Positions 8,391 through 29,033 of a stretch of 64,000 nucleotides of DNA are shown piece by piece. The DNA lies in NCBI GenBank assembly GCA_020445405.1, contig JAGRGQ010000001.1, positions 124,001 to 188,000 on the forward strand, in the 5' to 3' direction. Position numbers and translations under genes: made by a program. Numbering within the stretch: the first letter of the stretch is position 1; each line of letters begins with the position of its first letter. The notes under the pieces were generated by a model. The model saw only the letters and a list, made by a program, of their open reading frames with translations. It had not been told where the DNA came from and ran no database searches. The stretch is from Gammaproteobacteria bacterium. GTDB taxonomy: Bacteria; Pseudomonadota; Gammaproteobacteria; Chromatiales; Chromatiaceae.

Positions 8391-8582
8391 CCGGGAGGCA
8401 CCATGAAAACCGGAGGTCACGGATATATCGGGGAACGATTGTTTTTCCGATTGTGCCGGCCAGGCAAATATTTCATTACTGTTCGTGTAATATTCCGCTT
8501 CCAATTTTAACCAGGCGGAGGCGCACTTTTTGTGCGTGCTGAAGGTCTGAACATTAATGAGTTCAATCGGTATTTCACTGTG

Positions 8583-10304: not shown

Positions 10305-13300
10305 AGCCGGTGAGGCTCTTTTTGCGCTGGCTATTGTGGTCGGTACTGCTGTTGATCCTGCTGCCGCTGGCGTTTACCGCGGCGCTGACGACCGAAACCG
10401 CCACCAGCTGGGTTCTGCAGCAGGTGCCTGCGCTGGTGCGGCCGCTGGGGGTGGAGTTCAGTTACGGCGGCAGTCGGGGTAACCTGCTGCAGCGTCTGGA
10501 GCTCAGCGGTGTACAAGTCACGCTGGCTGACACCCGCTTCGAAGTGGCGCGCCTGCTGCTGCAATGGCAGCCGCTGGCCCTCACCACGCGGACGCTGCAT
10601 ATTCAGGCGCTGGAACTGGCCGATGCGCGGCTGGTGCTGCCAACGCCGCCGGCCGAGAGTGCCGCTGCCATCCCCGAGATTCCCGATATCACGCTGCCGC
10701 TCGCGCTGCGGGTGGACAAATTCCTGCTCGAAAGCCTGCAGATCGAGCAGGGGGAGACCCGCCTCGGCGTCAGCCGGGCCGCGCTGGCGGCAAAGTTCGA
10801 CCAACAGGGTCTGCTGCTGCGCGATCTGCACTACCAGGGCGGCGGGGTGCAGCTGAACGGAGGCGCAACGATACAGGCAACCGCACCGCATGCCCTGACC
10901 GGAGAGCTTTCCGCTATCGTCGACCAGTCGCTCACCGGCGAACAGGTTGGTGAGGTGAAGGCAACCGCGGTGCTGGGCGGTACGGCGCTGGGGCCGGCGT
11001 TCGATCTGACATTGACTTCGCCAGCGGATCTGCATCTGCGCGGTTCGCTGAAGCTGGATCAGCTGCAGCCCGGTTTCGACCTGGTGGCTGAATGGCCCGG
11101 GTTGAACTGGCCGCTGCAGGGTGCCGCAGCAATCACTGCCCGGACAGGTCGGCTCACGCTGAACGGGGTGACCGGCGATTATCGGCTCGATTTGAAAACC
11201 GGTGTGGTCGGTGAGGGCGTGCCGTCCGCCACTATCGATCTGGCCGCCCGGGGTGACCTGCAGGGGATGAAGCTTCAGCCGCTCCGGATTGGCGTGCTGG
11301 ATGGCGAACTGCAGGCCAACGGAAACATTGCCTGGGACGGGACGGTTCGCTGGGATTTGGATCTGCGCGCAGAACGTATCAATCCCGGCCTCTACCAGCC
11401 TGATTGGCCGGGGCGCATAAACGGACGCATGAGTGTCAGCGGAGCCCTCGCTGCCCAGCCATCCGACGGAATCGCACTGCGCGCACGCATAGATGAACTG
11501 GCGGGCGATTTGCGCGGTCAGCAGTTCAGCGCCAGTGGCGGCCTGGATTATCGTGCGGATGAAGTGCATGCCAATAAATTTGAAATCGCGTCAGGTCCCA
11601 ACCGGGTCTATCTGGACGGTCGTGTCGGTGAAACACTTGACCTGAAGTTCGATATCAAGGCACCCGAACTGGCCTCTCTTTTTCCCGGGTTGTCAGGCAG
11701 GCTGGATGGGGCAGGGGCACTCGGCGGGACGCGCGCCGCACCCGTGGTCACAGCCGGACTCAATGGCGATGCGGTCGCTTACCAGGATTTGCGCACCCAG
11801 CACATCACTCTCAACCTGGATTGGCAGCAGAATGGGGGTAAAGGCGAACTGCGTCTGAGCGGACTGGATCTCCAGGGTGTTCAGGTCGCTGATCTGAACG
11901 CGGAAATTGACGGAACTGCGGCATCGCATCGCCTCAACCTGGAGGTCATGGCTGCGCCGTACAACATCGGGCTGACCGCCCAGGGGGGGATTCGGGAGCG
12001 TACCTGGGAGGGGACGCTGGCGCGTCTGAGTCTGGACGATCCCGGGCTGGGTGCATGGCTTTTACAGACACCCGCCAGGCTGCGCCTGAGCGAGACGCTG
12101 GTTCGCTCCGACCCGGTCTGCATGGTACAGGCTGCCGCCAGCGTCTGCATTGAGGGTGGATGGAGCGGAGAGAAGGGACTGGACATTGCCGGCGGGCTCA
12201 AGGGCTTTCAACTTGCGCGGTTGACGCCGTTGATGCCGGGCAAGGCGGCAATCGAAGGCGGATTGCAGGGGGCATTCAAGGTCACTGGAGCCACCGCCAA
12301 ACCGAATGTGCAGTTCCAGTTGCAGCCAGGCGACGGTTTGATCAGGGTGGCGGATGAGACACAGCCATTTGAAGTGGCTTATCGCAACGCGAAAATCGAC
12401 GGCAGCTTCAGGAATGACCGCGGGAGCGTCAACCTGAATTTCGAACTGGGAAGCCAGGGACGGGCACAGGGAGAGCTGCTGCTGGGAGCGGAGGAGCGCG
12501 GCAGCAGAGCGCTCGGCGGGAAGGTCAACGTCGATTTTCCCGACCTGGCGCTGGTGGCCGGATTTGTGCCGGTGCTGGAAAAAGTTCAGGGACAACTGCA
12601 TATCGAGGCGGTATTGGGAGGATCGCTGGCGAAGCCGCAAACCACTGGCGTACTGCAGATCGAAAACGCGCAGGGTGAGCTGCCGGCGGCGGGGATTGCA
12701 CTGTCCGATATCCAGCTGACCGCACGCGGCGACGGCAGCACGCCGTTGCGGATCCAGGGAGGGGTAAGATCCGGTGATGGCCGTCTCGAACTCGACGGCA
12801 ACGTCGATCTGTCGGCAACCGCTGGTCCCGCCGTGGATTTCACGGTCAAAGGGGAAAATTTCCAGGCTGTCAGGTTACCAGAGGCGGCGGTGGAGATCTC
12901 TCCCGATCTGCGGTTGCAGGGAAGCGGACCGTTTCATCTTAGCGGTAATCTGCGCATTCCCAAGGCCGTGATCGAAATCAGGGAACTGCCGGAAGGCACT
13001 GTTGCGGTTTCGGAAGACGAAATCGTTATTGGTCAGGAGTCGGTGCAGAAACCCGCTGCAAGCACGCAGAATCTGACCGCGGCCGTTCGCATTGTGCTGG
13101 GGAAGCTGGTGACATTCAGCGGTTTCGGATTGAAAACAGCGTTGACGGGCGCTGTGGATGCGCGTGTCGACAACAACGGCACCAGCGTAAACGGCAAGGT
13201 CGAAATGAAAGAGGGCAGTTACAGATCCTACGGACAGAATCTGAAGGTGGAGCAGGGGCGGCTGCTGTTCGCCGGGCCGCCGGGTAACCCGGATGTCGAT

Positions 13301-13777
13301 CTGCGTGCCGTGCGGGTGTCGCGCGACGGAGAGGTCAAGGCTTTTCTGGCGCTGAGCGGACCGTTGTCGAAGCCACGCCCGCGGGTCTACAGCATACCTT
13401 CGCTGCCGGATGCCGAGGCGCTGGCGTATCTGTTGACCGGAAACGGACTGCGGCAGGCGGACCGGAAGCAGGGTGCGAACATTGCGGGCGCGGCGCTGTC
13501 AATCGGTGTGTCCAAAAGCGAGCCGATGTTGCAGCAGCTGAGCGACAGGCTGGGTCTCGACGAGCTGCGCGTGGACAGCGACGGCAGATTGGAAGATAGC
13601 TCGCTGATTCTTGGAAAATATCTGAATCCCGACCTCTACCTGGGCTACTCACAGGGACTTTTCAATCCCGAGGGAGCGGTATTGCTGCGCCTGAAGCTGA
13701 GCGAAAAACTGGAGTTGGAGAGCCGCTCCGGCAGCGAGCAGTCGGTAGACCTGTTCTATCGCCTCGAGCACAATTGA
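10301..13777 (+). CDS. tamB: Translocation and assembly module inner-membrane protein TamB
   Basis: TamB is a very long AsmA-like protein anchored in the inner membrane by an N-terminal helix. It spans the periplasm as a beta-taco groove that reaches TamA. The 1158-residue product has the single N-terminal membrane helix (residues about 8-30), hundreds of residues of amphipathic beta-repeat character rich in G, L, D and Q, and a C-terminal DUF490/TamB domain. That domain includes the recognisable segments PPGNPDVDLRA and LPDAEALAYLLTG and the closing LGKYLNPDLYLGYSQGLF. It starts with GTG at 10301 inside the end of tamA. The length is in the usual range (about 1150-1350). Its 3' end is followed immediately by the AT-rich island. 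Confidence 0.95.
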   Translation: MKPVRLFLRWLLWSVLLLILLPLAFTAALTTETATSWVLQQVPALVRPLGVEFSYGGSRGNLLQRLELSGVQVTLADTRFEVARLLLQWQPLALTTRTLHIQALELADARLVLPTPPAESAAAIPEIPDITLPLALRVDKFLLESLQIEQGETRLGVSRAALAAKFDQQGLLLRDLHYQGGGVQLNGGATIQATAPHALTGELSAIVDQSLTGEQVGEVKATAVLGGTALGPAFDLTLTSPADLHLRGSLKLDQLQPGFDLVAEWPGLNWPLQGAAAITARTGRLTLNGVTGDYRLDLKTGVVGEGVPSATIDLAARGDLQGMKLQPLRIGVLDGELQANGNIAWDGTVRWDLDLRAERINPGLYQPDWPGRINGRMSVSGALAAQPSDGIALRARIDELAGDLRGQQFSASGGLDYRADEVHANKFEIASGPNRVYLDGRVGETLDLKFDIKAPELASLFPGLSGRLDGAGALGGTRAAPVVTAGLNGDAVAYQDLRTQHITLNLDWQQNGGKGELRLSGLDLQGVQVADLNAEIDGTAASHRLNLEVMAAPYNIGLTAQGGIRERTWEGTLARLSLDDPGLGAWLLQTPARLRLSETLVRSDPVCMVQAAASVCIEGGWSGEKGLDIAGGLKGFQLARLTPLMPGKAAIEGGLQGAFKVTGATAKPNVQFQLQPGDGLIRVADETQPFEVAYRNAKIDGSFRNDRGSVNLNFELGSQGRAQGELLLGAEERGSRALGGKVNVDFPDLALVAGFVPVLEKVQGQLHIEAVLGGSLAKPQTTGVLQIENAQGELPAAGIALSDIQLTARGDGSTPLRIQGGVRSGDGRLELDGNVDLSATAGPAVDFTVKGENFQAVRLPEAAVEISPDLRLQGSGPFHLSGNLRIPKAVIEIRELPEGTVAVSEDEIVIGQESVQKPAASTQNLTAAVRIVLGKLVTFSGFGLKTALTGAVDARVDNNGTSVNGKVEMKEGSYRSYGQNLKVEQGRLLFAGPPGNPDVDLRAVRVSRDGEVKAFLALSGPLSKPRPRVYSIPSLPDAEALAYLLTGNGLRQADRKQGANIAGAALSIGVSKSEPMLQQLSDRLGLDELRVDSDGRLEDSSLILGKYLNPDLYLGYSQGLFNPEGAVLLRLKLSEKLELESRSGSEQSVDLFYRLEHN

Positions 13778-15478: not shown

Positions 15479-16399
15479 TCAGTTGGTATTCGTTTGCAGC
15501 GCATTCTCGGCCAGTGCGACCAGGTCGCGCAGAATCTTCTCCCCTTTCGGGCTCTCCACCAGTGCGACCAGAATATAGCGGCGCCAGTCCGTTCCCCAGA
15601 CCAGCACCGAGTCTGCGTGCCACTGTTTCCATGTGCCGGATTTGCGGTAGAGCGTCGCGTCGGGCGCCAGTTCGTTCAGTGACTTGACGAACTTGTGCTC
15701 GATGCCGGGATCCGAGAGCATCTCGAGCATGTCACGGGATGCCTGTGTACTGATCAGACGGCCGGTTGCCAGCTGATAATAGAAGCGGCAGACCTGGGCC
15801 ACACTGGCGGCATGGGATATGCCGTTGACGGGGTCCGGAAATCGGGGCCCCTCCTTGGCGTAGCGTTTGCCGACCCACAATCCGCCGCTTTTTCCGTCAT
15901 AAAAGTGATACCGGGGATCCCGCAATACCTCGTTGACCCCCATCAGTCCGCCCAGCCGGTCGATCATGCGGGTGGCGGCCGAGTTGCTCGATGTCCGGAT
16001 CATCGCGTGCAGATCCTGTTCGATCTCGGGCGTCCGCTTCAGCTTTCCTTTTTCGAAATGGTCGAACGCTGCCAGCAGAATGGCGATTTTGGGCAGACTG
16101 GCCGCATACATCTCCTGCTGGCCGTTGACTTGAGCGTAGAGCGGCGCGGCAGGATCCGAAAGGTCCACCAGCCCGACTGCCATTTTTCGCTTTCTTATCA
16201 GTTTCCGCCACTGCAGGCGCGTGGAGAGCTGCTGTTCCAGCCGTTTCTGCAGACTGCGATCCGTATGCTTGATCAGGGGCAGCCAGTCGCCCCTGTGCAC
16301 CGAGACCGGCAGCTCCTGCAAATCCGCGGTCCTGGCGGTTGCGGTCAACATCAGAAAACAGAGGCCGAACCCGAAAAGGTGGCGCAGATGGATTTTCAT
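15479..16399 (-). CDS. Exported serine hydrolase, class A beta-lactamase-like fold
   Basis: This is a 306-residue protein with an N-terminal signal peptide (residues 1 to about 24, ending TARTA). It has the three SxxK-family catalytic motifs: SLPK at 101-104, SSN at 137-139 and KSG at 253-255. I cannot find the omega-loop ExxxN of true class A beta-lactamases. A D,D-peptidase or other acyl-serine hydrolase is therefore more likely than an antibiotic-resistance enzyme. The start ATG overlaps the stop of the upstream transporter gene by four bases (16396-16399), so the two are one operon. A second, different SxxK hydrolase lies at the other end of this four-gene group. It probably acts in the periplasm on a peptide or cell-wall substrate; the real substrate is unknown. 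Confidence 0.8.
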   Translation of the reverse strand: MKIHLRHLFGFGLCFLMLTATARTADLQELPVSVHRGDWLPLIKHTDRSLQKRLEQQLSTRLQWRKLIRKRKMAVGLVDLSDPAAPLYAQVNGQQEMYAASLPKIAILLAAFDHFEKGKLKRTPEIEQDLHAMIRTSSNSAATRMIDRLGGLMGVNEVLRDPRYHFYDGKSGGLWVGKRYAKEGPRFPDPVNGISHAASVAQVCRFYYQLATGRLISTQASRDMLEMLSDPGIEHKFVKSLNELAPDATLYRKSGTWKQWHADSVLVWGTDWRRYILVALVESPKGEKILRDLVALAENALQTNTN

Positions 16400-17766
16400 T
16401 TCGATATTTCCGGGAGTGGATGGTCCAGTAACCGCTTGTGCTCGCGCACCACCAGGATGGCCAGCGTGAGCCAGGCTCCGATCAGCAGCATATTGAACAG
16501 AATAAAGCTTACCGCCTCGATATTAAGCACTCTGGTACCGATCAGTACCGTCAGCGCCGCCAACCCGTCGCCCAGGCGCACGCACAGGGTATCGATGGCA
16601 GCCTTGGCCTTGTAGATCATCTCCCTGGTGGTCGGCAGCCAGAGCACCTGGCGTGCGGTGTTGTTCACCGAGTAGTTGGTGCCGTTCTCGGCCGTCTTGG
16701 CGGCGGTCACAACAGCCAGCGCGCTTTCGCTCGCCATCGCGCCGTAGCCCACCAGTGAAACCAGCGGCGGGGTCAGCATCAACGCGCCGAAGCCGCCCCA
16801 CCGCTGCAGCCTGGAGACGACGAAGGCCTGCAGCAGCAGACCGGTCAGATTGACCCAGAAATAGAGATTGCTGTAGAAGGCCGTGGTACCCGCTTTGGTG
16901 GCGGCGGCGTCCAGACCCTCCGTCTCCAGAGCGCGCTGCACCAGCGCGAACAGAATGTTCTCGCCATTGGTCATGACCCAGAACATCGCGAACACCATCA
17001 GCGCGGTGAGCCTCAGATAACGGGTCCGCATAATCAGGCCGTAGGCGCCTGCGGTATCGGGTGCGGCGGCATGTGCACCGGTGTCGGTGCCGCTGTGGTT
17101 TTTGCTCACGCCGTGACGGTCGACCCAACGTGCCAGCATCAGCGCCAGCAGCAGCGGAACGCAGGCCACCAGCAGCAGGTGGAAGGTCTCGATCGCCAGA
17201 TCCTTCACCATTATCTCACCCAGCCAGGAACCCACCACGGCGCCGCTGGACGCACCCAGCGCAATCAGCGGAAACAGCCTTTTGCCGCGCTCTTCATCGT
17301 AGAGATCGGCGGCGAAGGACCAGAACTGGGCCACCAGCGTCACCGCGAAGATGCCCGTCCAGAGGTAAAACACCAGCCCCAGATAGGGCACCAGCTGAAA
17401 CAGGAATCCCGGGTGCAGCAGCCAGAAGAGCAGCAGATTGACGGTGAAAAACAGCCCGACACGGCTGATCAGGTCGCGCCTGAACCAGCGCGTCGTGAGT
17501 CTGGCGTAAAACGGAATCACAGCAAACAGCAGCAGGGACTGGGCAAAGCTCGAATAAGCCTTGACCTCGATTTTACTCAGTCCCGCGATGACCGAGATGG
17601 AGAGCCAGCCCTCGCGCACCGGTTTGATGAAGTAATAGGCGCACAACACCAGGAAGATAGTGGTGAACAGTGTCAGCGCCGGCACCACTTCGCCGGGGCG
17701 CACCTCGGTGACAACACCCAGCAGACGCCGCGGCCAGCTGGGGCTGGATGTAGTGGAGAGGGACAT
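16396..17766 (-). CDS. MFS-superfamily membrane protein of the ADP/ATP (NTP/NDP) carrier type
   Basis: This is a 456-residue integral membrane protein with about 12 hydrophobic segments. The opening region (RPGEVVPALTLFTTIFLVLCAYYFIKPVREGWLS) and YDEERGKRLFPLIALGASSGAVVGSWLG in the middle resemble the bacterial NTT/TLC-like MFS branch. These relatives of plastid and rickettsial nucleotide carriers are widespread in free-living bacteria and mostly of unknown substrate. TREMIYKAKAAIDTLCVRLGDGL near residue 370 is also characteristic. The gene is first in an operon with the serine hydrolase and diverges from an exported dikinase-like protein across 170 bases. That setting suggests it moves a substrate or product between cytosol and periplasm. 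Nucleotide exchange is not shown and should not be assumed. Confidence 0.75.
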   Translation of the reverse strand: MSLSTTSSPSWPRRLLGVVTEVRPGEVVPALTLFTTIFLVLCAYYFIKPVREGWLSISVIAGLSKIEVKAYSSFAQSLLLFAVIPFYARLTTRWFRRDLISRVGLFFTVNLLLFWLLHPGFLFQLVPYLGLVFYLWTGIFAVTLVAQFWSFAADLYDEERGKRLFPLIALGASSGAVVGSWLGEIMVKDLAIETFHLLLVACVPLLLALMLARWVDRHGVSKNHSGTDTGAHAAAPDTAGAYGLIMRTRYLRLTALMVFAMFWVMTNGENILFALVQRALETEGLDAAATKAGTTAFYSNLYFWVNLTGLLLQAFVVSRLQRWGGFGALMLTPPLVSLVGYGAMASESALAVVTAAKTAENGTNYSVNNTARQVLWLPTTREMIYKAKAAIDTLCVRLGDGLAALTVLIGTRVLNIEAVSFILFNMLLIGAWLTLAILVVREHKRLLDHPLPEISK

Positions 17767-17805
17767 GAATGAGCAATGCCGAATTGGATGTTAGAATGGA
17801 GCGCT

Positions 17806-17834
17806 ATTATGTAACGAGAATCCAGCAGCAACAA
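17806..17834 (-). promoter_or_regulatory. Possible sigma70-type promoter for the transporter-hydrolase operon
   Basis: On the minus strand, TTGTTG (17834-17829) and CATAAT (17811-17806) are separated by 17 bases within the 170-base divergent spacer, about 40 bases before the transporter start. The -35 is weak (three of six). No equally good plus-strand promoter was found for the dikinase-like gene. Confidence 0.3.
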
Positions 17835-17936
17835 GCGGCGGCCGAATGCTGCCGGGGAGAGTAGAATCCAGGCGGCGGCAAAAGTTTCCGGGAACCTCCA
17901 CAACCCACCGAATCACCATCAGCACAGGAATTCAGC

Positions 17937-20819
17937 ATGCGACCCATTCTTCTGCTCGCGTTAATCGTTTCCACCAGCCGGGCGGTGGCCTCCGCCGACG
18001 CGTTGACGCTGCCGCCGGCGGCAGTCGTGGAAGAGGCCAGGGGCATCGTGCTGTCCATGAAGAGGAACGAGCGCGGACCTTACAGCCGTATCCGCTGGTT
18101 CTGCAAAGACGGCAGTTCTCACCCGCCCACACCCTATCCCTGCGCGGAGCGGGGCGGCGGACACCAGTACGCGGAGTATTCGGCGGAACGCTCGCGGCTG
18201 GCGCAGCTGGGATGGCCCACAGGGACAGTGGTGGCGGCGCTCACCTGGGACGAACTGTGGCAGCCGGAGCAGCGCCATCGGCGGCTGAGGGCGCTGCCAC
18301 TGGAGTTCTATCTGGACTCGGTCGACGATGGCTGGGTGCTGCGCCGGGCGCGACACTACCGTGGACGGATACAACTGGAAGACGAGGAGCAGGCGGGCCG
18401 GTCGTTGTTGTTACAGCTGTTGGAACAGCCCGAATTTCTCCAGCATAATTTTTTGCTGGCGCGCGAACTGACCCGCACCCTCCCGCACGGCAGGCCGACC
18501 GGCGACCGGACGCGGGATATCCGCCATCTCTCCCAGGAGATCGCCGATACCCATCCCAGCTTCAACAATCTGCGAATCGAGGTGCATTCACGGCCATCCT
18601 CAGGCACCGCGGCACGTGTGCGCGAGTGGTTGGCCGGTCAACCGGAAGTGCCGGTTGAGATCCGCGACAGGGTGGAGCGCCTGACCGCCGGTCTGGATGA
18701 TCTGTACGGCCCGTCCGGCCGGCAATTCCGGCTGAAAGCATCTGCGCAATCCCTGGCCAGATTTTCACCCGAGGCGACCCGGTTGATCAAAGAGGCGCAG
18801 GGGGCAGCGCCCGCGCTGCGCATCGAGCGGTTGTCCCAGGCGGTGGCCCAACTGCGCAGAGATGCCGGAGAGCGGGAACCGGGCGCCAGTCTGCGGCGGC
18901 TGGATCTGTTGGTGGAACTGGAAGCGGAGCTGCGTACCTCGGCGCTGGAACTGCTGGAAACCGATCTGACCCGGCGGGAACTGCTGGCTCTGGCGCGCAA
19001 TCTGCTGCGCGCGTCCTGGGGATTGGGTTGGCTCTCCAACGGAGAAACCGAGGCCCTGAGTTCACCGCTCGACGGACTGTTGAACAGCGGCGATGCGGCG
19101 GCATCGGATTTTGCGTTCGCCACCAGACGCCTGTCGCTGGCTGCGGGCTGGACGGCGCAGACGGTGCGCTATGTCTTTGCCGAACCCCTGCTCTACTACG
19201 GCGCGCTTGAACCCAAGGCGGATCGCTTTGTGGACGATCTGCTGCGCGATTCACTGCTGCTGCCTCTGGGTGAGCTGGCGCATCGGCTGGCGGTCGACGG
19301 TGCCCGCGCCGCCGGTATCGGTCACCGCGTATTCGGTGATCCGGCAGGTGGACTGCTGGGCATCAACCCGGGGGTGGCCCGGGGACGTCTGCGGGTGTTG
19401 GAAGCGCAGGAACTGGCACAGGGCATCCATGCGGCGGACGGCGAAATCGTTGTTCTGACTGAAACCGTGGCAGATTTGAACCCGGTGGCGGGAATTCTCA
19501 CGCTGGGGGAAGGCAACCCGTTGTCCCACGTGCAGATGCTGGCACGCAACCTGGGCATACCCAATGCCGTGGTCGCCAAGGAGCTGCTGCCCCGGCTGAG
19601 CGCCCACGCCGGAGAGCAGGTGCTGCTCGCGGTGGCGGGTGACGGCCGGGTATTGATAGAGCGGGTGGATGGAGTTGCGGAAGGCGCAGAAAAACAGCGC
19701 GATCAGGCCGCAACGCCGCAAAAGGTGGCGCTCCCGCTGCCGGACCTGGCACAGGTGCAGCCGCTGCGCCTGGCACAACTGCATGCCGGGCTCTCCGGCA
19801 AAACGGTGGGTCCCAAGGCTGCCAATGTCGGTCAGTTGAACCGACTCTTTCCGGGTCGCATCTCAGCCGCGATAGCGCTTCCCTTCGGGATTTTCGCAGA
19901 GCATACGCTGGCGCCCAGGCAGCGTCTTGAGCAGGCGTTCCATCGCCGCCAGGCCGGTGAACTGAGCCAGGCCGGACTGGAGGCGGAACTGGATGAGGTG
20001 CGCCGGATGGTGGCGGAGGTTTCGTTGAAAGCAGAGCTGGTCACGCAACTGACCGCGCTGATGGAGCAGGAGTTCGGTCCCGTGGGCAGCTACGGGGTAT
20101 TCGTCCGCTCAGACACCAATGCCGAGGATCTGCCGCAATTTACCGGGGCGGGTCTCAATAAGACCATACCGCATGTGGTTGGACTGGATCGCCAGTTCGC
20201 CGCTGTTCCCCAGGTCTGGTCCTCGGTCTATACCCAGCGGGCAATGGCATGGCGCGCCCGCATTCTGAGCAATCCGGAGGCGGTGTTCGCTTCGGTACTG
20301 CTGATGAAGAGTGTGCCATCCGAAAAGTCCGGTGTGCTGGTGACATCGGATCTGACAACCGGCGGCAGCGGATTGACCGTTTCGGTAGCCTGGGGCGTGG
20401 GCGGTGCGGTGGACAACGAAAGTGCCGAATCCAGGGTCCTCAGAGCGGATGGGGGTTCCCTGCTGCTGGCGGAGGCGAAGGCCCCTTATCGCCGCGCCCT
20501 GGCGGAAGAGGGGGGTGTCGTCTGGCTGCCGGCAGACGCCGGCAGGGTCCTGACCGACGGCGAGATGAACGCGTTGCGCCAATTGGCCGATGAGGTGAGA
20601 GAACGCTATCCGCCGGCGCTGGACGAGCGCGGCAACCCATTGCCCTGGGACATCGAGTTCGGTTTCGCCGGGGGCAAATTGTGGCTTCTCCAGATCCGTC
20701 CTCTGATTCAGCGCGGGCGGGTGGAGGCGGATGCGGTAGTCAATGCACGGGTGCCGCCCGCGGTTGCGGCCGGCACTGTTTCACTCGACCAGGTACCGGA
20801 TAGTGTAATCAGACGATGA
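17937..20819 (+). CDS. Exported PEP-synthase/PPDK-like dikinase with GWD-like domain order
   Basis: This 960-residue protein carries a signal peptide (residues 1 to about 20). An unassigned all-helical or mixed N-terminal half runs to about residue 450. Next is a phosphohistidine swivelling domain with NPLSHVQMLARNLGIPN, the likely phosphorylated His being residue 531. From about residue 615 comes an ATP-grasp PPDK N-type domain: GPKAANVGQLN, then FVRSDTNAEDLPQFTGAG near 721-735, and the closing WLLQIRPLIQ near 915. No PEP-binding TIM barrel is present. The order His domain then ATP-grasp is that of glucan water dikinases, the reverse of PEP synthase and PPDK. The substrate is therefore probably not pyruvate. 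Export is odd for an ATP-using enzyme. AGGAA lies a few bases before the ATG. The stop overlaps an in-frame ATG of the next gene, so the two are likely cotranscribed. Database labels would probably call it phosphoenolpyruvate synthase. Confidence 0.72.
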   Translation: MRPILLLALIVSTSRAVASADALTLPPAAVVEEARGIVLSMKRNERGPYSRIRWFCKDGSSHPPTPYPCAERGGGHQYAEYSAERSRLAQLGWPTGTVVAALTWDELWQPEQRHRRLRALPLEFYLDSVDDGWVLRRARHYRGRIQLEDEEQAGRSLLLQLLEQPEFLQHNFLLARELTRTLPHGRPTGDRTRDIRHLSQEIADTHPSFNNLRIEVHSRPSSGTAARVREWLAGQPEVPVEIRDRVERLTAGLDDLYGPSGRQFRLKASAQSLARFSPEATRLIKEAQGAAPALRIERLSQAVAQLRRDAGEREPGASLRRLDLLVELEAELRTSALELLETDLTRRELLALARNLLRASWGLGWLSNGETEALSSPLDGLLNSGDAAASDFAFATRRLSLAAGWTAQTVRYVFAEPLLYYGALEPKADRFVDDLLRDSLLLPLGELAHRLAVDGARAAGIGHRVFGDPAGGLLGINPGVARGRLRVLEAQELAQGIHAADGEIVVLTETVADLNPVAGILTLGEGNPLSHVQMLARNLGIPNAVVAKELLPRLSAHAGEQVLLAVAGDGRVLIERVDGVAEGAEKQRDQAATPQKVALPLPDLAQVQPLRLAQLHAGLSGKTVGPKAANVGQLNRLFPGRISAAIALPFGIFAEHTLAPRQRLEQAFHRRQAGELSQAGLEAELDEVRRMVAEVSLKAELVTQLTALMEQEFGPVGSYGVFVRSDTNAEDLPQFTGAGLNKTIPHVVGLDRQFAAVPQVWSSVYTQRAMAWRARILSNPEAVFASVLLMKSVPSEKSGVLVTSDLTTGGSGLTVSVAWGVGGAVDNESAESRVLRADGGSLLLAEAKAPYRRALAEEGGVVWLPADAGRVLTDGEMNALRQLADEVRERYPPALDERGNPLPWDIEFGFAGGKLWLLQIRPLIQRGRVEADAVVNARVPPAVAAGTVSLDQVPDSVIRR

Positions 20820-20947
20820 GGCGCCGCGTCCCCGCTGGTGAATCCGGCGATCAGTATCAGCACAGGAAGCGGCTTGGGATTACGGCTTATTCAGACACAA
20901 CCATGTTCAGTTTCACTGCCGAGCCTTTGGCTTTTTCCGGAGTAAAA

Positions 20948-22306
20948 ATGAGAGCGCGTTACCAGCACAAAAAACCTATGCGGCGCATGCAGGCTGCGGC
21001 ATTGGCCGTCATCGGGCTGATGCCGCTGATGCCCCCGGTTCTGCAGGCTTATCCACTGGATGCCGACGAGAGCGGTATCAGGCGATTGCAGGGGCAGCGT
21101 GCAATTCAGGCCCGCTCAGGCGGACCGAAACTCCCCCCGGGCGCGCTGTTGTCGGTGAACGATATCGTTCTCCATCTGGAGCGGCATGCCGACTGGAACC
21201 TGGATCCTCAGGAGCGCGATCCGGCGCTGCAGAGCGCTCTCGAATCGGTATTCGCGTCCAGGGATCCCTCCTACGGAGTGGTCGTGGTGGATTTCACCGA
21301 TCCCGCCAATATCCGCTGGGCCGGCGTGCGGGAGGAGCGGCGGCAGGTTCCCGGCAGCGTGGGCAAGGTGCTGTGCATGACGGCACTGTTCGACGGTCTG
21401 CGCCGGGCGTTTCCGGATATCGGGGAGCGCAAACGCATACTGCGTGAGCACTGGGTGGTGGCCACCGACTGGGTGGTTAAAGACTCGCACAAGGTGCCAC
21501 GCCTGGACAGCGCCGGCGGTGGTCTGCGCTATGCGGTAATTCAACCCGGCGACCGTTTTACCCTGGGGGAGTGGGTGGACCATATGATCTCCCCCTCGGC
21601 CAATGCCGCCGGTTCGATCGTGTGGAAGGAGGCTATATTATTGCGCGCCTACGGCAGTGCGTATCCGCCATCTCCCGAAGAGGAGACGGCTTTCTTCCGC
21701 AATACGCCGGCAGCTGAGCTGAGCGCACTTGCACAGGCCGTCATCAACGATGCGCTGACCGCGGCGGACCTGCTGCCGGATGAACTGCGTGTCGGCAACT
21801 TCTGGACCAGCACCGGCAAAAAAAAGGTGGCAGGCGTCGGTGGCTCCAGAGCCACGCCTCGGGAGCTGGCGCGCTGGCTGCTCCGGCTGGAGCAGGGCCG
21901 GCTGGTGGACGCCTGGTCCAGCCTGGAGATGAAGCGCTATCTGTACATGACCAAGCGCCGCTATCGCTACGTCTACGCACCGGAACTGGCACAGGCGGCG
22001 GTTTACTTCAAGAGCGGATCCCAGTTCCGCTGCCGGCCGGAGGAGGGGTTCAAATGCGGCAAGTACATGGGTAACGCGCAGAATGCGATGAATTCGATTC
22101 TGATCGTCGAGTCGCCAGCCCAGGCCGGAGCGCAGCAGAAGCGCTACCTGGTGGCACTCATCTCGGACGTGCGTAAAGTCAATTCCGCCTGGGACCACTC
22201 GCGGCTGGGAGCAGCCATCGAGGAGATTGTCCGCAGCCGCCAGTCGGTCAGGGTCAGGGATGCGGGTAATGCGGGAGAGATCAAGGATTCCGGAACCAGC
22301 GAATGA
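20948..22306 (+). CDS. Second exported SxxK serine hydrolase
   Basis: This is a 452-residue protein with an N-terminal signal (basic MRARYQHKKPMRR, hydrophobic core, cleavage after about residue 34). The SxxK triad is SVGK at 137-140, SAN at 217-219 inside SPSANAAGS, and KSG at 355-357. It is a distant relative of penicillin-binding proteins and beta-lactamases with a long N-terminal extension, and it is clearly distinct in sequence from the hydrolase at 15479. I chose the ATG at 20948 because GGAG lies 6 bases ahead and the signal peptide follows directly. An ATG at 20816 overlapping the previous stop would put 44 non-signal residues in front. It ends the plus-strand arm of the four-gene group. 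The substrate is unknown; a peptidoglycan or peptide acyl-enzyme reaction in the periplasm is the safest guess. Confidence 0.75.
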   Translation: MRARYQHKKPMRRMQAAALAVIGLMPLMPPVLQAYPLDADESGIRRLQGQRAIQARSGGPKLPPGALLSVNDIVLHLERHADWNLDPQERDPALQSALESVFASRDPSYGVVVVDFTDPANIRWAGVREERRQVPGSVGKVLCMTALFDGLRRAFPDIGERKRILREHWVVATDWVVKDSHKVPRLDSAGGGLRYAVIQPGDRFTLGEWVDHMISPSANAAGSIVWKEAILLRAYGSAYPPSPEEETAFFRNTPAAELSALAQAVINDALTAADLLPDELRVGNFWTSTGKKKVAGVGGSRATPRELARWLLRLEQGRLVDAWSSLEMKRYLYMTKRRYRYVYAPELAQAAVYFKSGSQFRCRPEEGFKCGKYMGNAQNAMNSILIVESPAQAGAQQKRYLVALISDVRKVNSAWDHSRLGAAIEEIVRSRQSVRVRDAGNAGEIKDSGTSE

Positions 22307-23799: not shown

Positions 23800-23885
23800 T
23801 AATTTGGGGTCAGAGTAAAAACTGTAGTTTTGGGATTAAAGCAGTAACGCTAGAAGTCGGAAGTTTTTACTCTGACCCCAAATTA
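23800..23885. repeat. Perfect inverted repeat, copy 2
   Basis: The 24-base arms at 23800-23823 and 23862-23885 are exact reverse complements around a 38-base spacer. They share the core TTTGGGGTCAGAGTAAAAAC with the repeat at 6007-6059, but the bases outside the core differ and the spacer here is much longer. It lies between two convergent genes, so it could serve as a two-way terminator. The right arm overlaps the 3' end of the minus-strand gene and supplies its last codons and stop. Confidence 0.9.
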
Positions 23886-26587
23886 CCATCGCGTGCTGCC
23901 GGCAGGCTGGTCAGATCCAGCGAGACCTTTTTGATGCCCTCTTCATTCGCCTCAGGCGTAATGCTGAAACCAAGCGCGGCCGCCAGGTTCAGCATGCGGC
24001 GGTTGTTCGCCAGCACCTCTCCCTTCATTACCCTGGTGCCCCTTGCGCGGCAGTAGTCGATCATCTTGGTCAGCAGTTTACGGCCCAGACCCTCTCCCTT
24101 GAGGTCGGACCTCACCACCACGGCAAACTCCGCGGTATGGTTGTTGGCGTCGGTCACGGTGCGCACCACGCCGAGCGTCTCATCCCGGATACCGGGATCC
24201 ACGCCGGCGGCAATGAACGCCATCTCCCGGTCGTAGTCGATCTGGGTGAGCTTCGCCATCTCCGAATGCGGCAGGCTTTTTACCAACCCGAAAAAGCGGA
24301 AACGGATATCCTCGGGCGTCAGCCGGGAGATGAATTCATGGTGCCTGGGCTCATCTTCCGGGCGTATCGGCCGCAGCAGCACCCGCCGTCCGTTGGCTGC
24401 TTCAAAATGCTCCTCCAATTGCTGGGGGTAGGGACGGATGGCGAGTTGCCGGGCGCCGTTCTCGTTGGGCGCCACCCGGATGCGGGCGTCCAGCGCCAGC
24501 ACGCCGCGCTCATCGGACCAGAGGGGATTGATATCGAGTTCCAGGATTTCGGGCAGGTCCACCACCATCTGCGACACTTTCAGCAGCGTGAGACAGAGCT
24601 GGTCCATATCCACCGCCTGCCGGTTTCTATAGCCCGCCAGCAGTCTGGAAATCCGGGTGCGGCTGATCATATCCCGGGCCAGATTCATGTTGAGCGGCGG
24701 CAGCGCCATGGCGCTGTCCTTCACCACCTCGACTTCAGTGCCGCCCTGCCCGAACAGGATGACCGGTCCGAAGATCGCATCGCTGAAAACGCCGATGATC
24801 AACTCGTGAGCGCCCGGGCGTTTCGCCATTGCCTGTACGCTGAAACCCTGCACCTGTGCGGTGGGCCGCTTTTCCGCAACCAGGCCGAGCATATGTTCGG
24901 CCGCCTGTCTGACCGATTCGGCTGTTTTCAGGTTCAACGCAACACCGCCCACGTCCGATTTGTGCGAAATATCCTCGGAGAGGATCTTGACGACCACCGG
25001 ATATCCTATCTCCGTCGCATGCTGCGCGGCACTCGCAGGGTCTCCGGCGACATGGGTCTCCACCGTGGGTACGCCGTAGGCCACCAGCACCGCTTTGGCT
25101 TCCGGCTCCGTCATCATCCCGTTGTCCCGGAGCAGTACCTTTTTGACGATTGCCCGCGCCGTTACCGTGTCCGGTGTAAACGCTTCCGGCGCCGACGGCG
25201 GCGTCTCCATCAACATCTCCATATTGCGCCGGTAGTTCACCATGTGCATGAAAGCACCCACCGCGTGACTCGGTGTTTCGTAAGTCGGGAGACCGGCCTG
25301 AGCGAACATGCGCCGGGCGGGTTCGACAGACTCTCCGCCGACCCAGCTCGTCAATACATTGCAGTTTGCCCGCTTTGCGGCATCTATCACCGCCTGCGCA
25401 GCATCGGTGGGGGAGGCCGTGGCTACCGGTGCATGCATCGCCAGCAGCGCATCCACGCCCGGCGCGGTGGTCAGAATTTCCGCCGTCGCGGCGTAGCGTG
25501 CGCCCGGTGCATCGCCGATGATGTCCACCGGATTCGCGCCGGACCAGTTAACCGGCAGCACCGCATCCAGCGCGGCAATGGTCTGTTCCGAAAGTGTGGC
25601 GAGCCGGCCGCCTTCGTGAATCAGATCGTCAACCGCCATGACGCCGATGCCGCCGCCGTTGGTCATGATTGCAAGCGCTTCACCCTTCAGCGGCTTTGAT
25701 CTGGCAAGCGTCTCCACCGCTGCGAACAGCTCGCCGATGTTGCACACGCGCAGCATGCCGGCACGCCGGATCACCGTGTCGTACACCTCGTCGAGACCGG
25801 CAAGTGCACCGGTGTGCGAGGCCGCGGCCCTGGCTCCCTCCGCCGCGCGGCCGGATTTGATGACGATAATGGGTTTGTTGCGCGAAGCGGCCCGGGCAGC
25901 GGAGATGAACTTGCGTCCGCTGCGAATCGACTCAATGTAGAGCAGGATTGCCCGGGTGCCCGGTTCGGTCCCCAGATAATCGATGACGTCGGCAAAATCC
26001 ACGTCGATTTTATCGCCGAGTGAGAGAAAGTGGGAGAAGCCCACGTCGTGGGTGCGGGCCCAATCGAGCACCGCCGTGCAGAGCGCACCCGACTGGGAGA
26101 CGAACGCGATTTTTCCCGGTTTGGCGGGGACATGCGCGAAGCTGGCATTGAGCCTGATACCCGGTACCAGCGCGCCGACACAATTGGGTCCGAGGATACG
26201 GATATCCAGCGCGCGCGTCTTCTCATGCACGAGGTCGATGACCCTGCGGCCGCTCGGCTTGTCGATCACGCCGCCTAGACCGGCCGTCAGGCAGATCACG
26301 GCATGGGTTCCCTTGCGTCCCAACGCGTCGATCAGCGAGGGAACGGTGGCAGGCGGCGTGCAGATGATCGCCATCTCCGGCGTGATCGGCAGACTCTCCA
26401 CATCCGGATAGGCGAGTACGCCCGCGACCGCGTTGCGTTTTGGATTGACCGGCATGATCGGCCCGAGAAAGCCCCCTTCGAGCAGATTACGCATGACGAC
26501 GGTACCTACCGCATGGGGGCGGTTGGAGGCGCCAATGACGGCAACCGATCCGGGTGTGAAGAGTTTATCCAGGTTTCTGGTGGACAT
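23867..26587 (-). CDS. ADP-forming acyl/acetyl-CoA ligase fused to GNAT acetyltransferase (PatZ/Pka-like)
   Basis: This is a 906-residue protein of the PatZ/YfiQ type. The first part is an NDP-forming acyl-CoA synthetase-like region: a CoA-binding Rossmann fold (VAVIGASNRPHAVGTVVMRNLL, residues 10-130), a ligase domain to about 460, and an ATP-grasp domain from about 490 to 700 (TEPEAKAVLVAYGVP, GYPVVVKILSEDISHKSDVGGV). The final 170 residues are a GNAT domain (LLRPIRPEDEPRHHEFISRL, VVRSDLKGEGLGRKLL). PatZ-like proteins acetylate lysines of metabolic enzymes such as acetyl-CoA synthetase and often have a dead ligase part. True ADP-forming acetate ligation is the alternative. The last residues (NLGSE) and the stop come from the inverted repeat, so the original C-terminus has been replaced. 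The gene is convergent to mgtE and appears monocistronic. Confidence 0.88.
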   Translation of the reverse strand: MSTRNLDKLFTPGSVAVIGASNRPHAVGTVVMRNLLEGGFLGPIMPVNPKRNAVAGVLAYPDVESLPITPEMAIICTPPATVPSLIDALGRKGTHAVICLTAGLGGVIDKPSGRRVIDLVHEKTRALDIRILGPNCVGALVPGIRLNASFAHVPAKPGKIAFVSQSGALCTAVLDWARTHDVGFSHFLSLGDKIDVDFADVIDYLGTEPGTRAILLYIESIRSGRKFISAARAASRNKPIIVIKSGRAAEGARAAASHTGALAGLDEVYDTVIRRAGMLRVCNIGELFAAVETLARSKPLKGEALAIMTNGGGIGVMAVDDLIHEGGRLATLSEQTIAALDAVLPVNWSGANPVDIIGDAPGARYAATAEILTTAPGVDALLAMHAPVATASPTDAAQAVIDAAKRANCNVLTSWVGGESVEPARRMFAQAGLPTYETPSHAVGAFMHMVNYRRNMEMLMETPPSAPEAFTPDTVTARAIVKKVLLRDNGMMTEPEAKAVLVAYGVPTVETHVAGDPASAAQHATEIGYPVVVKILSEDISHKSDVGGVALNLKTAESVRQAAEHMLGLVAEKRPTAQVQGFSVQAMAKRPGAHELIIGVFSDAIFGPVILFGQGGTEVEVVKDSAMALPPLNMNLARDMISRTRISRLLAGYRNRQAVDMDQLCLTLLKVSQMVVDLPEILELDINPLWSDERGVLALDARIRVAPNENGARQLAIRPYPQQLEEHFEAANGRRVLLRPIRPEDEPRHHEFISRLTPEDIRFRFFGLVKSLPHSEMAKLTQIDYDREMAFIAAGVDPGIRDETLGVVRTVTDANNHTAEFAVVVRSDLKGEGLGRKLLTKMIDYCRARGTRVMKGEVLANNRRMLNLAAALGFSITPEANEEGIKKVSLDLTSLPAARDGNLGSE

Positions 26588-27227
26588 CGTTATCCTGATT
26601 CTGCAAGGCTCAATCGAATGCCCGGTGGCAGCTTTGTTGAGCGGTTACGGAAAAGTGTACTCTGCCAGAATGACGCGATTTTTTCACCGAATCGATCGGG
26701 TTGCGTCGACCGGTGAAACAGCGGGTGGCGCCGCGGGGAGCTCTGAAACGGAGCCGGCTTGATAGCGGAGAGCAGAGTGGGGCGGGGGGCGCGGAGCAGA
26801 CTGACGATCCGGATATACGGTTCCATTTTTCCATAAGATTCCGACACGATCGGCGTCGATCGGTTTTTTCAATTGCATTTGAAAAAAAAAGAGTGCAGCG
26901 GAACGCGGGAAACTTTCCCTGCCTCAGGCACCGCCCCCGGGGAATCGCCGGCGGGAACATCCGACTTGGCGGATAAGCGAATACACCGCCACCCATACTT
27001 GCGTCTGATCACTAAAATGTGTTTAATAAATTAAAATAAAAAATATTTATGTTTAATAAATGTGTATTTTTGGCCAGTAATGCAGCCTAGTATCACTTCG
27101 CGACTACCGCGGCGAATGAGAATCCGAGCGGTGCGTCGACGGCGCAGGTGTCGTTTGTTTTAACTGATATCCCGGCCCGTCCGGACCAACGTCCGTACCG
27201 GCCGGCTCAACCAGGGTGGATAATACG
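26588..27227. other. Intergenic region of about 640 bases with an AT-rich block
   Basis: I see no convincing gene here. The first 400 bases are GC-rich without codon structure in any frame. From about 27013 to 27075 the sequence turns strongly AT-rich and holds two copies of TGTTTAATAAAT (27020-27031 and 27050-27061), whose starts are 30 bases apart. This is the likely promoter and control region of the Na/Pi cotransporter downstream. On the minus side the region is the leader of the acyl-CoA ligase gene. Confidence 0.6.
27020..27061 (+). repeat. Direct 12-base repeat in AT-rich promoter region
   Basis: TGTTTAATAAAT occurs at 27020-27031 and exactly at 27050-27061, starts 30 bases apart (nearly three helical turns), in an AT-rich block that contrasts with its surroundings. 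The placement about 165 bases ahead of the phosphate cotransporter start suggests an operator or UP-like element. No match to a Pho box was recognised. Confidence 0.5.
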
Positions 27228-29033
27228 GTGCTGAAAAAATTTCTTCTCCCCATCATTCTGCTGGTGCTTGCATACGGTTTCTGGATAAGCCCCAATTTTA
27301 AGGCGATTGCAGCGGGCGTTGCCATCTTTCTGTTCGGCATGCTCTCTCTGGAGCAGGGATTTCAGGCTTTTACCGGGGGGGGACTGGAACGGCTGCTGCG
27401 GCGCACCACCTCCTCCACCGGCCGGAGCGTTCTGTTCGGTATCGTGAGCACCACGATCATGCAGTCCAGTTCTCTGGTCTCGGTCATCGCCATCTCGTTC
27501 CTCAGCGCCGGGCTGATCACGCTGGCTGCCGGAATCGGGATCATCTTCGGCGCCAACCTGGGCACCACCACGGGAGCGTGGCTGATTGCCGGCTTTGGTC
27601 TCAAGGTCAATATAGCCGCCTATGCGATGCCGATGCTGGCATTCGGCGTGATTCTGATATTTCAGTCATCCAAGTCGCTCAAGGGCATTGGATATATCCT
27701 GGCCGGGCTGGGTTTTCTGTTTCTCGGCATCCATTACATGAAAGAGGGTTTCGAGACCTTCAAAAACACCATCAATCTGGCTGAATACGCCATCGCCGGT
27801 TATCCTGGTGTGCTGATCTTTACCGGTATCGGTATCTTCGCCACTGTGGTGATGCAGTCGAGCCACGCCACGCTGGTGTTGACCATCACCGCGCTGGCAG
27901 CCGGTCAGATTACTTACGAGAACGGGCTAGGCCTGGCCATCGGTGCCAACATTGGCACCACGATCACCGCGATCCTGGGGGCAATGAGCGCCAATGAAGG
28001 CGGCAAGCGGCTGGCCGCCGCACACCTGGTGTTCAATGTGGTGACCGGCGTCATCGCGATCATCTTCATCTACCAGATCGTGGCGGTGGTTGATGCGACC
28101 GCCGGTGCTGTCGGCATTGCACCTGACGATTACACCCTGAAACTGGCGGTCTTCCATACGCTTTTCAATTTGCTGGGCATCATCGTGATGCTGCCGCTGA
28201 TGGGAAAACTGGTTGCCGGACTGATTAAATTCATCCCGGAGAAGAAGCCGGAAGTGGATCAGCCGAAGTACCTGACCGATGCATCTGCGGCATTCCCGGA
28301 GACGGCGCTGGAGGCGGTCCGCCTGGAGACCCAGCGGGTCTATGAGGCGGCGCTGCGTATCATCGGAGACGGGCTCGGCATGAGGAGGGAGGAGATTGTC
28401 TCCAGTCCGGATCTGGAGGAGGCGGTCGCGGCGCAGCCTCGCGTGCACGAATTTGATATCGACGCAATGTATGAGAAACACATCAAGGGGATCTACAGCG
28501 CCATCGTTGCCTTCATCAGCGGCACTGCCTTCTCCCGCCAGGAGGAGCACTCTTCTGGTCTGCGCTGGCTCCGAAACGCCTGTACCCGTATGGTGGAAGC
28601 CGTCAAGGATACGCATCATATTCAGGAGAACCTGATTGAATACGTCGACGCCGACAGTGAAAATCCGAAAATGAGAGAGCTGTACAACAGGATCCGGGTC
28701 CAGGTCGGACTGGTCATCCGCGGCCTGGAGGAGATGAGGGACTCCTCCACCGAGGTGGTGGATGCGCTCTCTCTGGACGCGCTTAAACTGCAGGTAAACG
28801 AGGAACAGGAGAGCATCAACCAGGTCATAGCCGAGATGATCAGCCAGCGCGCCATCACGCCCGCGATGGGATCCTCATTGATCAATGACAGCGGGTTCGC
28901 TTACGCTATCTCGGTGAACCTGATCGAGGCTGCGCAGAGCCTGTTTGTCAGCAGCGACCGTGATCTGGATCAGGCAGCACATGATGTCGTGCTGGATGAG
29001 GACGAACTCAAGCAGGTGCAGGCAGCCGGGTGA
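27228..29033 (+). CDS. Na+/phosphate cotransporter family protein with PhoU-like C-terminus
   Basis: This is a 601-residue inner-membrane protein of the NptA/PhoU type, which imports (or in some bacteria exports) phosphate with sodium. Two inverted-topology halves each carry the QSS signature: MQSSSLVSVIAISFLSAG followed by IIFGANLGTTTG, and MQSSHATLVLTITALAAG followed by AIGANIGTTITAILGAMSA. From about residue 350 on the protein is soluble and helical like PhoU. I chose the GTG at 27228 because AGGGTGGA ends 7 bases before it and the product then starts MLKKFLLPIILL. An in-frame GTG at 27216 is the alternative. The upstream region is AT-rich with a repeated 12-mer. A small charged protein follows 115 bases later. 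Confidence 0.92.
   Translation: MLKKFLLPIILLVLAYGFWISPNFKAIAAGVAIFLFGMLSLEQGFQAFTGGGLERLLRRTTSSTGRSVLFGIVSTTIMQSSSLVSVIAISFLSAGLITLAAGIGIIFGANLGTTTGAWLIAGFGLKVNIAAYAMPMLAFGVILIFQSSKSLKGIGYILAGLGFLFLGIHYMKEGFETFKNTINLAEYAIAGYPGVLIFTGIGIFATVVMQSSHATLVLTITALAAGQITYENGLGLAIGANIGTTITAILGAMSANEGGKRLAAAHLVFNVVTGVIAIIFIYQIVAVVDATAGAVGIAPDDYTLKLAVFHTLFNLLGIIVMLPLMGKLVAGLIKFIPEKKPEVDQPKYLTDASAAFPETALEAVRLETQRVYEAALRIIGDGLGMRREEIVSSPDLEEAVAAQPRVHEFDIDAMYEKHIKGIYSAIVAFISGTAFSRQEEHSSGLRWLRNACTRMVEAVKDTHHIQENLIEYVDADSENPKMRELYNRIRVQVGLVIRGLEEMRDSSTEVVDALSLDALKLQVNEEQESINQVIAEMISQRAITPAMGSSLINDSGFAYAISVNLIEAAQSLFVSSDRDLDQAAHDVVLDEDELKQVQAAG

Follow-up and report, generated by a model that had tools for sequence, protein, structure and literature searches.

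A conserved gene set encoding an exported dikinase-like protein, a relative of ATP/ADP carriers and two exported serine hydrolases

Judging from gene content and genome neighborhoods, the four genes of a divergent locus in a 64,000-nucleotide stretch of gammaproteobacterial DNA (hereafter, the window) constitute a conserved set that is passed on and relocated together. The set encodes an exported dikinase-like protein (DIK), a transporter related to the ATP/ADP carriers of the TLC/NTT type (TLC) and two exported serine hydrolases of the penicillin-binding/beta-lactamase fold (SxxK1 and SxxK2). We propose, with a probability of about 0.38, that these genes form a single extracytoplasmic, ATP-using envelope system, with DIK phosphorylating an envelope polymer, probably peptidoglycan. 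To our knowledge, ATP-driven phosphotransfer is generally held to end at the inner membrane; the combination of an exported dikinase that retains its catalytic residues with a relative of ATP/ADP carriers makes a periplasmic ATP economy testable with four genes.

All four open reading frames are intact (Table 1). The preliminary description of this locus had recognized two divergent pairs, SxxK1 with TLC and DIK with SxxK2, separated by 170 bp, and had named the protein families from the sequence; the coordinates bear out this arrangement, and Pfam searches recover the same families (Beta-lactamase2 for both hydrolases, TLC ATP/ADP transporter, and PPDK_N). For all four proteins, only such generic family assignments are available at present. 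The TLC and SxxK1 reading frames overlap by 4 bp. The ATGA overlap between DIK and SxxK2 in the window depends on an upstream ATG of SxxK2 and is probably a start-codon artefact: because the homologues of SxxK2 match only from approximately residue 55 of the reading frame and begin with a signal peptide followed immediately by a conserved YPLDG motif, the real start is probably located at 20948 or 20981, some 130-160 bp past the end of DIK. From the start at 20948, which is used for motif numbering below, SxxK2 comprises approximately 450-452 amino acids. A genuine DIK/SxxK2 overlap is present in several relatives (e.g., at locus L008, where DIK ends at 5591 and SxxK2 starts at 5587).

Table 1. 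Features of the four-gene locus (positions in the window)
Feature	Position	Strand	Description
SxxK1	15479..16399	-	exported class-A-beta-lactamase-fold serine hydrolase, 306 aa
TLC (TLC/NTT-like transporter of the MFS type)	16396..17766	-	456 aa, PF03219
Spacer between the divergent pairs	17767..17936	.	170 bp
DIK	17937..20819	+	exported dikinase-like protein, 960 aa, PPDK_N
DIK phosphohistidine (swivel) domain	19362..19706	+	residues ~476-590
DIK catalytic His531 codon	19527-19529	+	
DIK ATP-grasp (PPDK_N) domain	19749..20732	+	residues ~605-932, C-terminal to the His domain
SxxK2	20816..22306	+	second exported SxxK serine hydrolase, reading frame of 496 aa, PF13354

Among 369 genomes of Gammaproteobacteria, DIK is represented in 36 and SxxK2 in the identical 36, so that the two are jointly present or jointly absent in all 369; SxxK1 was detected in 34 of the 36 DIK-positive genomes and was absent from the remaining 333. 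Linkage was checked in 30 of the 36 genomes: SxxK2 is located near DIK in 27 of these, and a TLC-type transporter lies at most 1 kb from SxxK1 in 22. The set spans 25 gammaproteobacterial families, with relatives in Acidobacteriota, Gemmatimonadota and Myxococcota, and its linkage is kept across Gammaproteobacteria, Acidobacteriota and other phyla while gene order and strand vary (many genomes have the order DIK and SxxK2 in the forward, SxxK1 in the reverse and TLC again in the forward orientation); therefore, the link reflects more than inherited synteny alone. The distance matrices of the set proteins agree closely (r = 0.88-0.95, with r = 0.951 for DIK and SxxK2). A chance association of neighbors is ruled out by the co-occurrence table together with the linkage. 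The preliminary description had named, as an observation that would refute it, the four families being found together in this genome only; it is not refuted in this way, as the set recurs in other Gammaproteobacteria and in further phyla. It had also deduced joint function from the overlaps and the shared spacer; joint function is strongly supported by these genomic comparisons, because co-occurrence is near-perfect, linkage survives rearrangement and the distance matrices match. This is stronger evidence than the overlaps and the spacer, which is not kept in all relatives. As that description had also stated, no pathway with this set appears to have been reported: the open-access literature on exported dikinases, periplasmic ATP supply and the gene set yielded nothing relevant. 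Clustering of the neighboring genes revealed, as recurring families, the members of the set, the P551 family discussed below and one unrelated family (four loci); TLC-HEAT proteins adjoin the set in some loci.

The N-terminal half of DIK begins with a signal peptide and is helical and novel; next come a phosphohistidine domain and, at the C-terminal end, an ATP-grasp domain. Both the sequence alignment and the AF2 model (mean pLDDT 89.3) indicate an intact dikinase core composed of the ATP-grasp and the swivelling phosphohistidine domains. The Pfam match to PPDK_N has an E-value of 1.1e-28, and residues 506-551 match the PEP-utilizers family with an E-value of 1.8e-4, under the cut-off of that family; in profile positions, DIK 476-556 align to PEP synthase 384-467 and DIK 627-961 to PEP synthase 19-376. 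In the alignment of 44 homologues, S530-H531 is invariant, as are K627, R724 and T743; these three residues and H531 align to Lys22, Arg117, Thr136 and His825 of rifampin phosphotransferase (RPH), so that DIK possesses the Lys, Arg and Thr for the ATP phosphates and the swivel His that are characteristic of the dikinase superfamily. In RPH, mutation of Lys22, Arg117 or Thr136 abolishes function and His825 is catalytic (PMC4844700). An N-terminal hydrophobic segment is present in 37 of the 44 DIK sequences, none with a later TM-like segment (here and below, export was called by a hydropathy test, which requires a hydrophobic N-terminal segment with an AxA-like site behind it and no membrane helix further on, rather than by a dedicated predictor). 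For the N-terminal 470 residues, neither Pfam nor a fold search with the whole model pointed to any family, and no glycan-binding domain was seen in DIK.

With RPH, PEP synthase and PPDK, DIK shares the ATP-grasp fold, a homologous phosphohistidine domain and the catalytic residues, but differs from all of them in its signal peptide and its unmatched N-terminal region. PEP synthase and PPDK consist of an N-terminal ATP-grasp domain, a central His domain and a C-terminal PEP/pyruvate-binding barrel; in DIK the domain order is reversed and the barrel is absent in Pfam, so DIK is not a plain PEP synthase or PPDK. The succession of His domain and ATP domain is that of glucan water dikinase (GWD). 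GWD and phosphoglucan water dikinase (PWD) contain the same two domains, hence dikinase chemistry is to be expected of DIK, whereas, unlike these enzymes, DIK lacks a starch-binding domain, is exported rather than plastidial and is linked to SxxK hydrolases. The best match of the GWD1 phosphohistidine model (PF22973) in the whole genome falls on the His domain of DIK in the window genome and in G247 (in G388, by coordinates); at approximately 12 bits (12.4 in the window genome) against a cut-off of 27, this does not amount to assignment to GWD.

The transporter can be assigned by sequence similarity to the ATP/ADP-carrier (TLC) clan: it scores above the gathering threshold of PF03219 (E = 2.1e-7, 30.6 bits versus 21), and its profile matches two solved ADP,ATP carriers, that of Arabidopsis (9j3j) at 2.9e-8 and another (9j3n) at 1.4e-4. 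Divergent versions adjoining SxxK1 show higher Pfam TLC scores (60-71 bits). Homologues of TLC are present in 24 of the 25 DIK-positive genomes reached from the loci, mostly from Acidobacteriota and Deltaproteobacteria/Myxococcota; no TLC-family gene was found in 3 of 30 DIK-positive genomes, and 6 of 16 DIK-negative genomes encode TLC-family proteins. In these matches, the transporter resembles the NTT/TLC carriers of plastids and Chlamydiae, from which it differs in belonging to free-living bacteria and in being encoded beside exported enzymes. Nucleotide transport by this protein is uncertain because the alignment with known carriers starts at approximately residue 133, covering the second two thirds of the protein and leaving the N-terminal third unaligned, and because the GKSGG stretch of the plant carrier reads GDGLA here; its KGK reads KAK. 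The nucleotide-binding lysines of plant NTT1 are K155 and K527 (PMC3306366).

By sequence comparison, both hydrolases are exported serine enzymes with intact active-site motifs. The Pfam scores for Beta-lactamase2 (PF13354; cut-off of 22 bits) are 69.7 bits for SxxK1 (E = 3e-19) and 25.6 bits for SxxK2 (E = 9e-6), and both proteins display the SxxK, SxN and K[ST]G motifs of this fold family, including Tll2115: S101-x-x-K104, S137-x-N139 and K253-x-G255 are invariant in 35 homologues of SxxK1, and S137-x-x-K140, S217-x-N219 and K355-S-G in 37 homologues of SxxK2. Signal-peptide-like N-termini were detected in 33 of the 35 and 32 of the 37 sequences, respectively, and no later TM-like segment in any of them. 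The SxxK1 profile matches 2j9o at 4e-14, and the nearest solved relative is Tll2115 of Thermosynechococcus, the D,D-peptidase-like PBP-A. A profile search with SxxK2, which, unlike its PF13354 relatives, has a long family-specific middle region, gave no significant match among solved chains. The two hydrolases had been described as unrelated-looking; the profile-profile comparison (98.7% probability) reveals them instead as distant relatives.

In one branch, represented outside the window, P551 takes the place of SxxK2. This protein is likewise exported (signal-peptide-like N-termini in 13 of 13 sequences by hydropathy) and carries an SHGC motif reminiscent of L,D-transpeptidases. Its motifs, HN-G and SRGPxSHGCTR, have YkuD-like spacing, and the comparisons with YkuD are weak: E-values of 0.05-0.15 (best 0.047) for Pfam PF03734, under the cut-off, and 75% in hhalign over 21 columns, below the threshold. 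A Foldseek search with the model of P551 returned nothing below E = 0.3, and the top structural neighbor in VIA, the Bdellovibrio L,D-carboxypeptidase Bd1075, is a weak one (Z 5.1), the model being poor around the motif. The possible relation to YkuD is thus a lead.

In the proposed envelope system, the TLC protein would carry ATP out of the cytoplasm across the inner membrane in exchange for phosphate, AMP or ADP, and DIK would pass the beta-phosphate of ATP via His531 to a hydroxyl of the envelope polymer, with release of AMP and phosphate. Glucan water dikinase carries out a comparable phosphotransfer on starch. The novel helical half of DIK may bind the polymer, and wherever this has been phosphorylated, SxxK1 and SxxK2 (or P551) would shorten its peptide stems or cross-link them anew. 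An envelope polymer is a plausible target, and peptidoglycan would be the most probable acceptor, as the SxxK partners resemble D,D-peptidases and P551, the partner in the other branch, has an L,D-transpeptidase-like motif. That a dedicated carrier exports ATP and thereby fuels an exported dikinase acting on peptidoglycan or another envelope polymer, with the two penicillin-binding-fold hydrolases as partners, is less likely than not. ATP is not normally available in the periplasm, and this counts against the proposed system, as do the occurrence of TLC-family genes in genomes that lack DIK and the search of DIK for a glycan-binding domain, which found none. If the proposal is correct, ATP-driven polymer modification outside the cytoplasm would extend to about one tenth of the Gammaproteobacteria in the sample as well as to several further phyla, and with peptidoglycan as the acceptor this would be an unrecognized wall modification in many environmental bacteria that might affect sensitivity to lysozyme, antibiotics or phages.

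Self-protection by drug inactivation, whereby DIK would phosphorylate a foreign antibiotic in the manner of RPH, wall-active compounds would be hydrolysed or sequestered by the SxxK proteins and the MFS protein would move the compound out of or into the cell, is unlikely. The class-A beta-lactamase fold of the hydrolases is compatible with such a role, and the solved structures closest to the ATP domain of DIK are rifampin phosphotransferases (5hv1, VIA-align Z 34.1, rmsd 2.0 over 304 residues, compared with Z 31 for 2ols). Nevertheless, DIK is not a plain rifampin phosphotransferase, scoring 74.8 bits against a cut-off of 999 for NF041857, with its His domain N-terminal to the ATP domain and no match to a rifampin- or pyruvate/PEP-binding domain. 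Nor are the hydrolases plain class A beta-lactamases: for the NCBIfam model bla_class_A, SxxK1 scores 17.2 bits against a cut-off of 200 and SxxK2 gives no match, and no class-A ExxLN motif is visible after the SxN of SxxK1 in the alignment of 35 homologues. Drug inactivation also fits poorly with a transporter of a nucleotide-carrier family, with the spread over 25 families of the sample and with the PADLOC search, in which none of the four proteins had a match, a result by which we also discarded an anti-phage system.

It is rather improbable that DIK instead works, after export, as a ligase or activating enzyme driven by ATP, with the same core as PigC/RedH, and acts on a wall-peptide carboxyl, another group or a small molecule, with the SxxK proteins as acyl-transfer partners. 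ATP-grasp domains are also found in ligases and SxxK folds are capable of acyl transfer; the DIK core is matched by the NCBIfam models for PigC (8e-20) and RedH (3e-21), both far under their cut-offs, and structure comparison places D-Ala-D-Ala ligases among the distant fold neighbors of the ATP domain. These resemblances are at the level of the fold, whereas the phosphohistidine domain with its invariant His531 points to phosphate transfer. A scavenging function, in which DIK would act on external nucleotides or phospho-compounds in the periplasm, TLC would import the products and the hydrolases would digest wall debris, seems quite unlikely: the characterized TLC carriers of Chlamydiae and plastids do import nucleotides and many hosts of the set are environmental or marine bacteria, but a dikinase spends ATP rather than saving it, and neighbor clustering of the loci found no nucleotidase or phosphatase family recurring beside the set. 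Least probable, and very much so, is that DIK is inactive as a kinase where it is located and that its nucleotide core is an ATP/AMP sensor or scaffold regulating both hydrolases, as the scarcity of extracytoplasmic ATP and the stable linkage to two hydrolases could suggest, given that, unlike in typical pseudoenzymes, all the residues essential for the first half-reaction of RPH are invariant in DIK across phyla.

The four intact ORFs of the cassette lie in the window where the preliminary description had placed them, and encode an ATP/ADP-carrier-family transporter (TLC), two exported SxxK serine hydrolases (SxxK1 and SxxK2) and an exported dikinase-like protein (DIK). The TLC and SxxK1 genes share a 4-bp ATGA overlap, and 170 bp separate this pair from that of DIK and SxxK2. 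For SxxK2, the start codon at 20816 is questionable; 20948 or 20981 appears likelier because homologues align from about residue 55 and open with a signal peptide that precedes a conserved YPLDG motif. DIK and SxxK2 thus probably do not overlap in the window, whereas they truly do in relatives such as homologous locus L008.

Coordinates of cassette genes and related genes (L-numbers, homologous loci in other genomes)
Feature	Location	Strand	Family or remark
TLC/MFS transporter	17766-16396	minus	PF03219 TLC (Pfam)
SxxK1	16399-15479	minus	PF13354 Beta-lactamase2 (Pfam)
DIK	17937-20819	plus	PF01326 PPDK_N (Pfam)
SxxK2 ORF	20816-22306	plus	PF13354 Beta-lactamase2 (Pfam)
P551 example	L035:12689-14341		12 relatives in alignment
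Longer MFS/TLC-like proteins	L089:12694-14838, L088:12430-14889, L004:1127-3901, L044:3611-6688, L053:15071-18154		adjoining cassette
Short Acidobacteriota dikinases	L081:5477-7432, L082:4745-6793, L083:5197-7095, L084:194-2095, L085:5924-7927		not adjoining SxxK genes

A DIK-based scan yielded 55 loci spanning Gammaproteobacteria, Acidobacteriota, Gemmatimonadota, Myxococcota/Deltaproteobacteria and others. In nearly all full loci, SxxK2 or another exported partner is encoded directly 3' of DIK; SxxK1 is at most a few kb away in most of them, and a TLC gene is present in many proteobacterial loci. Among 369 evenly drawn Gammaproteobacteria, DIK is represented in 36 genomes from 25 families, the identical 36 carry SxxK2, and SxxK1 is found in 34 of these and in none of the remaining sample (hypergeometric p ~1e-50 for SxxK2 and ~1e-45 for SxxK1, assuming independent genomes, which genomes are not). 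SxxK2, SxxK1 and TLC genes are close to DIK in 27, 23 and 20 of 30 DIK-containing genomes, respectively, and in 22 the TLC gene lies at most 1 kb from SxxK1. The gene order varies, being <SxxK1 <TLC >DIK >SxxK2 in the window and most often >DIK >SxxK2 <SxxK1 >TLC elsewhere; that linkage survives rearrangement argues for selection. The inter-locus distance correlations with DIK (0.951 for SxxK2, 0.891 for SxxK1 and 0.876 for TLC) are strong, as expected of genes travelling together. In Acidobacteriota, the TLC gene does not adjoin the set, and a homologue, often strong, is encoded elsewhere in nearly every genome searched. A single contig (L038:1882-12652) carries two DIK genes, apparently one per branch, surrounded by P551 (see below), SxxK1-like and TLC genes.

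With 44 sequences as input, AlphaFold2 gave a confident model of DIK (mean pLDDT 89.3). Residues 605-932 form an ATP-grasp domain that superposes well on rifampin phosphotransferase (RPH) with AMPPNP (Z 34.1, 2.0 A, 304 residues); the swivelling phosphohistidine domain (~476-590) precedes it, inverting the domain order of PEP synthase and RPH. In RPH, Lys22, Arg117 and Thr136 are required for correct phosphotransfer and His825 carries the phosphate (PMC4844700); the aligned K627, R724, T743 and H531 of DIK are invariant in 44/44 homologues, 37 of which pass a simple signal peptide test. The mostly helical N-terminal half, with two nearly invariant cysteines (C56 and C69), has no family match in Pfam or in a fold search with the whole model. 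The best match of the GWD1 phosphohistidine model, in this genome and others, is the DIK phosphohistidine domain, far below the cut-off. A shorter (~650 aa) Acidobacteriota family with a signal peptide and the same domain order occurs without the cassette, so exported dikinases are not limited to it.

Every part of the cassette falls in a known fold family. We regard the whole as a new type of system because the open-access literature yielded no described system of this composition and because the DIK architecture fails the tests for PEP synthase, pyruvate phosphate dikinase, RPH and glucan, water dikinase.

The SxxK, SxN and K-x-G motifs are retained without exception in SxxK1 and SxxK2, and neither scores high enough with the class A beta-lactamase model. 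Described preliminarily as unrelated-looking, the two proved to be distant relatives (hhalign 98.7%). A search with the SxxK1 profile leads to Thermosynechococcus Tll2115, known as PBP-A, a D,D-peptidase-like protein. In one deltaproteobacterial/myxococcal DIK branch, the place of SxxK2 is taken by P551, a family of exported proteins of ~550 aa, encoded in two copies at some loci, with a YkuD-like SHGC motif, a conserved HN-G and a DxDGDG calcium-loop-like stretch. Its membership in YkuD is tentative; the L,D-carboxypeptidase Bd1075 heads a weak list of structural neighbours. Replacement of a D,D-type enzyme by a possibly L,D-type one would point to peptidoglycan peptide stems as the target.

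The transporter in the window belongs to the TLC clan (Pfam), and its family profile matches two ADP,ATP carriers of known structure, one of them from the chloroplast; other genomes have divergent versions next to SxxK1 with higher scores (60-71 bits). Several loci encode a second, longer transporter-like protein; most of the five tabulated contain HEAT repeats and two a C-terminal cyclic-nucleotide-binding domain. TLC might carry ATP out of the cytoplasm, DIK would phosphorylate itself at His531, releasing AMP and phosphate, and the phosphate would then move to an envelope polymer that the SxxK enzymes would also edit. ATP export is proposed mainly because the TLC clan is repeatedly recruited beside an exported ATP-using enzyme; the substrate residues are not convincingly conserved, so this step is inferred, as are the phosphate acceptor and the sequence of events. 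There is support for export of the proteins, for intact catalytic residues and for joint inheritance, and the solid co-occurrence and intact residues weigh more in the interest of the cassette than the proposed mechanism.

Among the flanking genes, a Na+/phosphate cotransporter-family protein (27216-29033), ~5 kb downstream, shows no sign of connection. TamA and TamB, ordinary outer-membrane assembly genes with overlapping ends (8532-13777), lie shortly upstream, and an ATP-grasp-type acyl-CoA synthetase with a C-terminal GNAT acetyltransferase domain is encoded at 23867-26587 on the minus strand.
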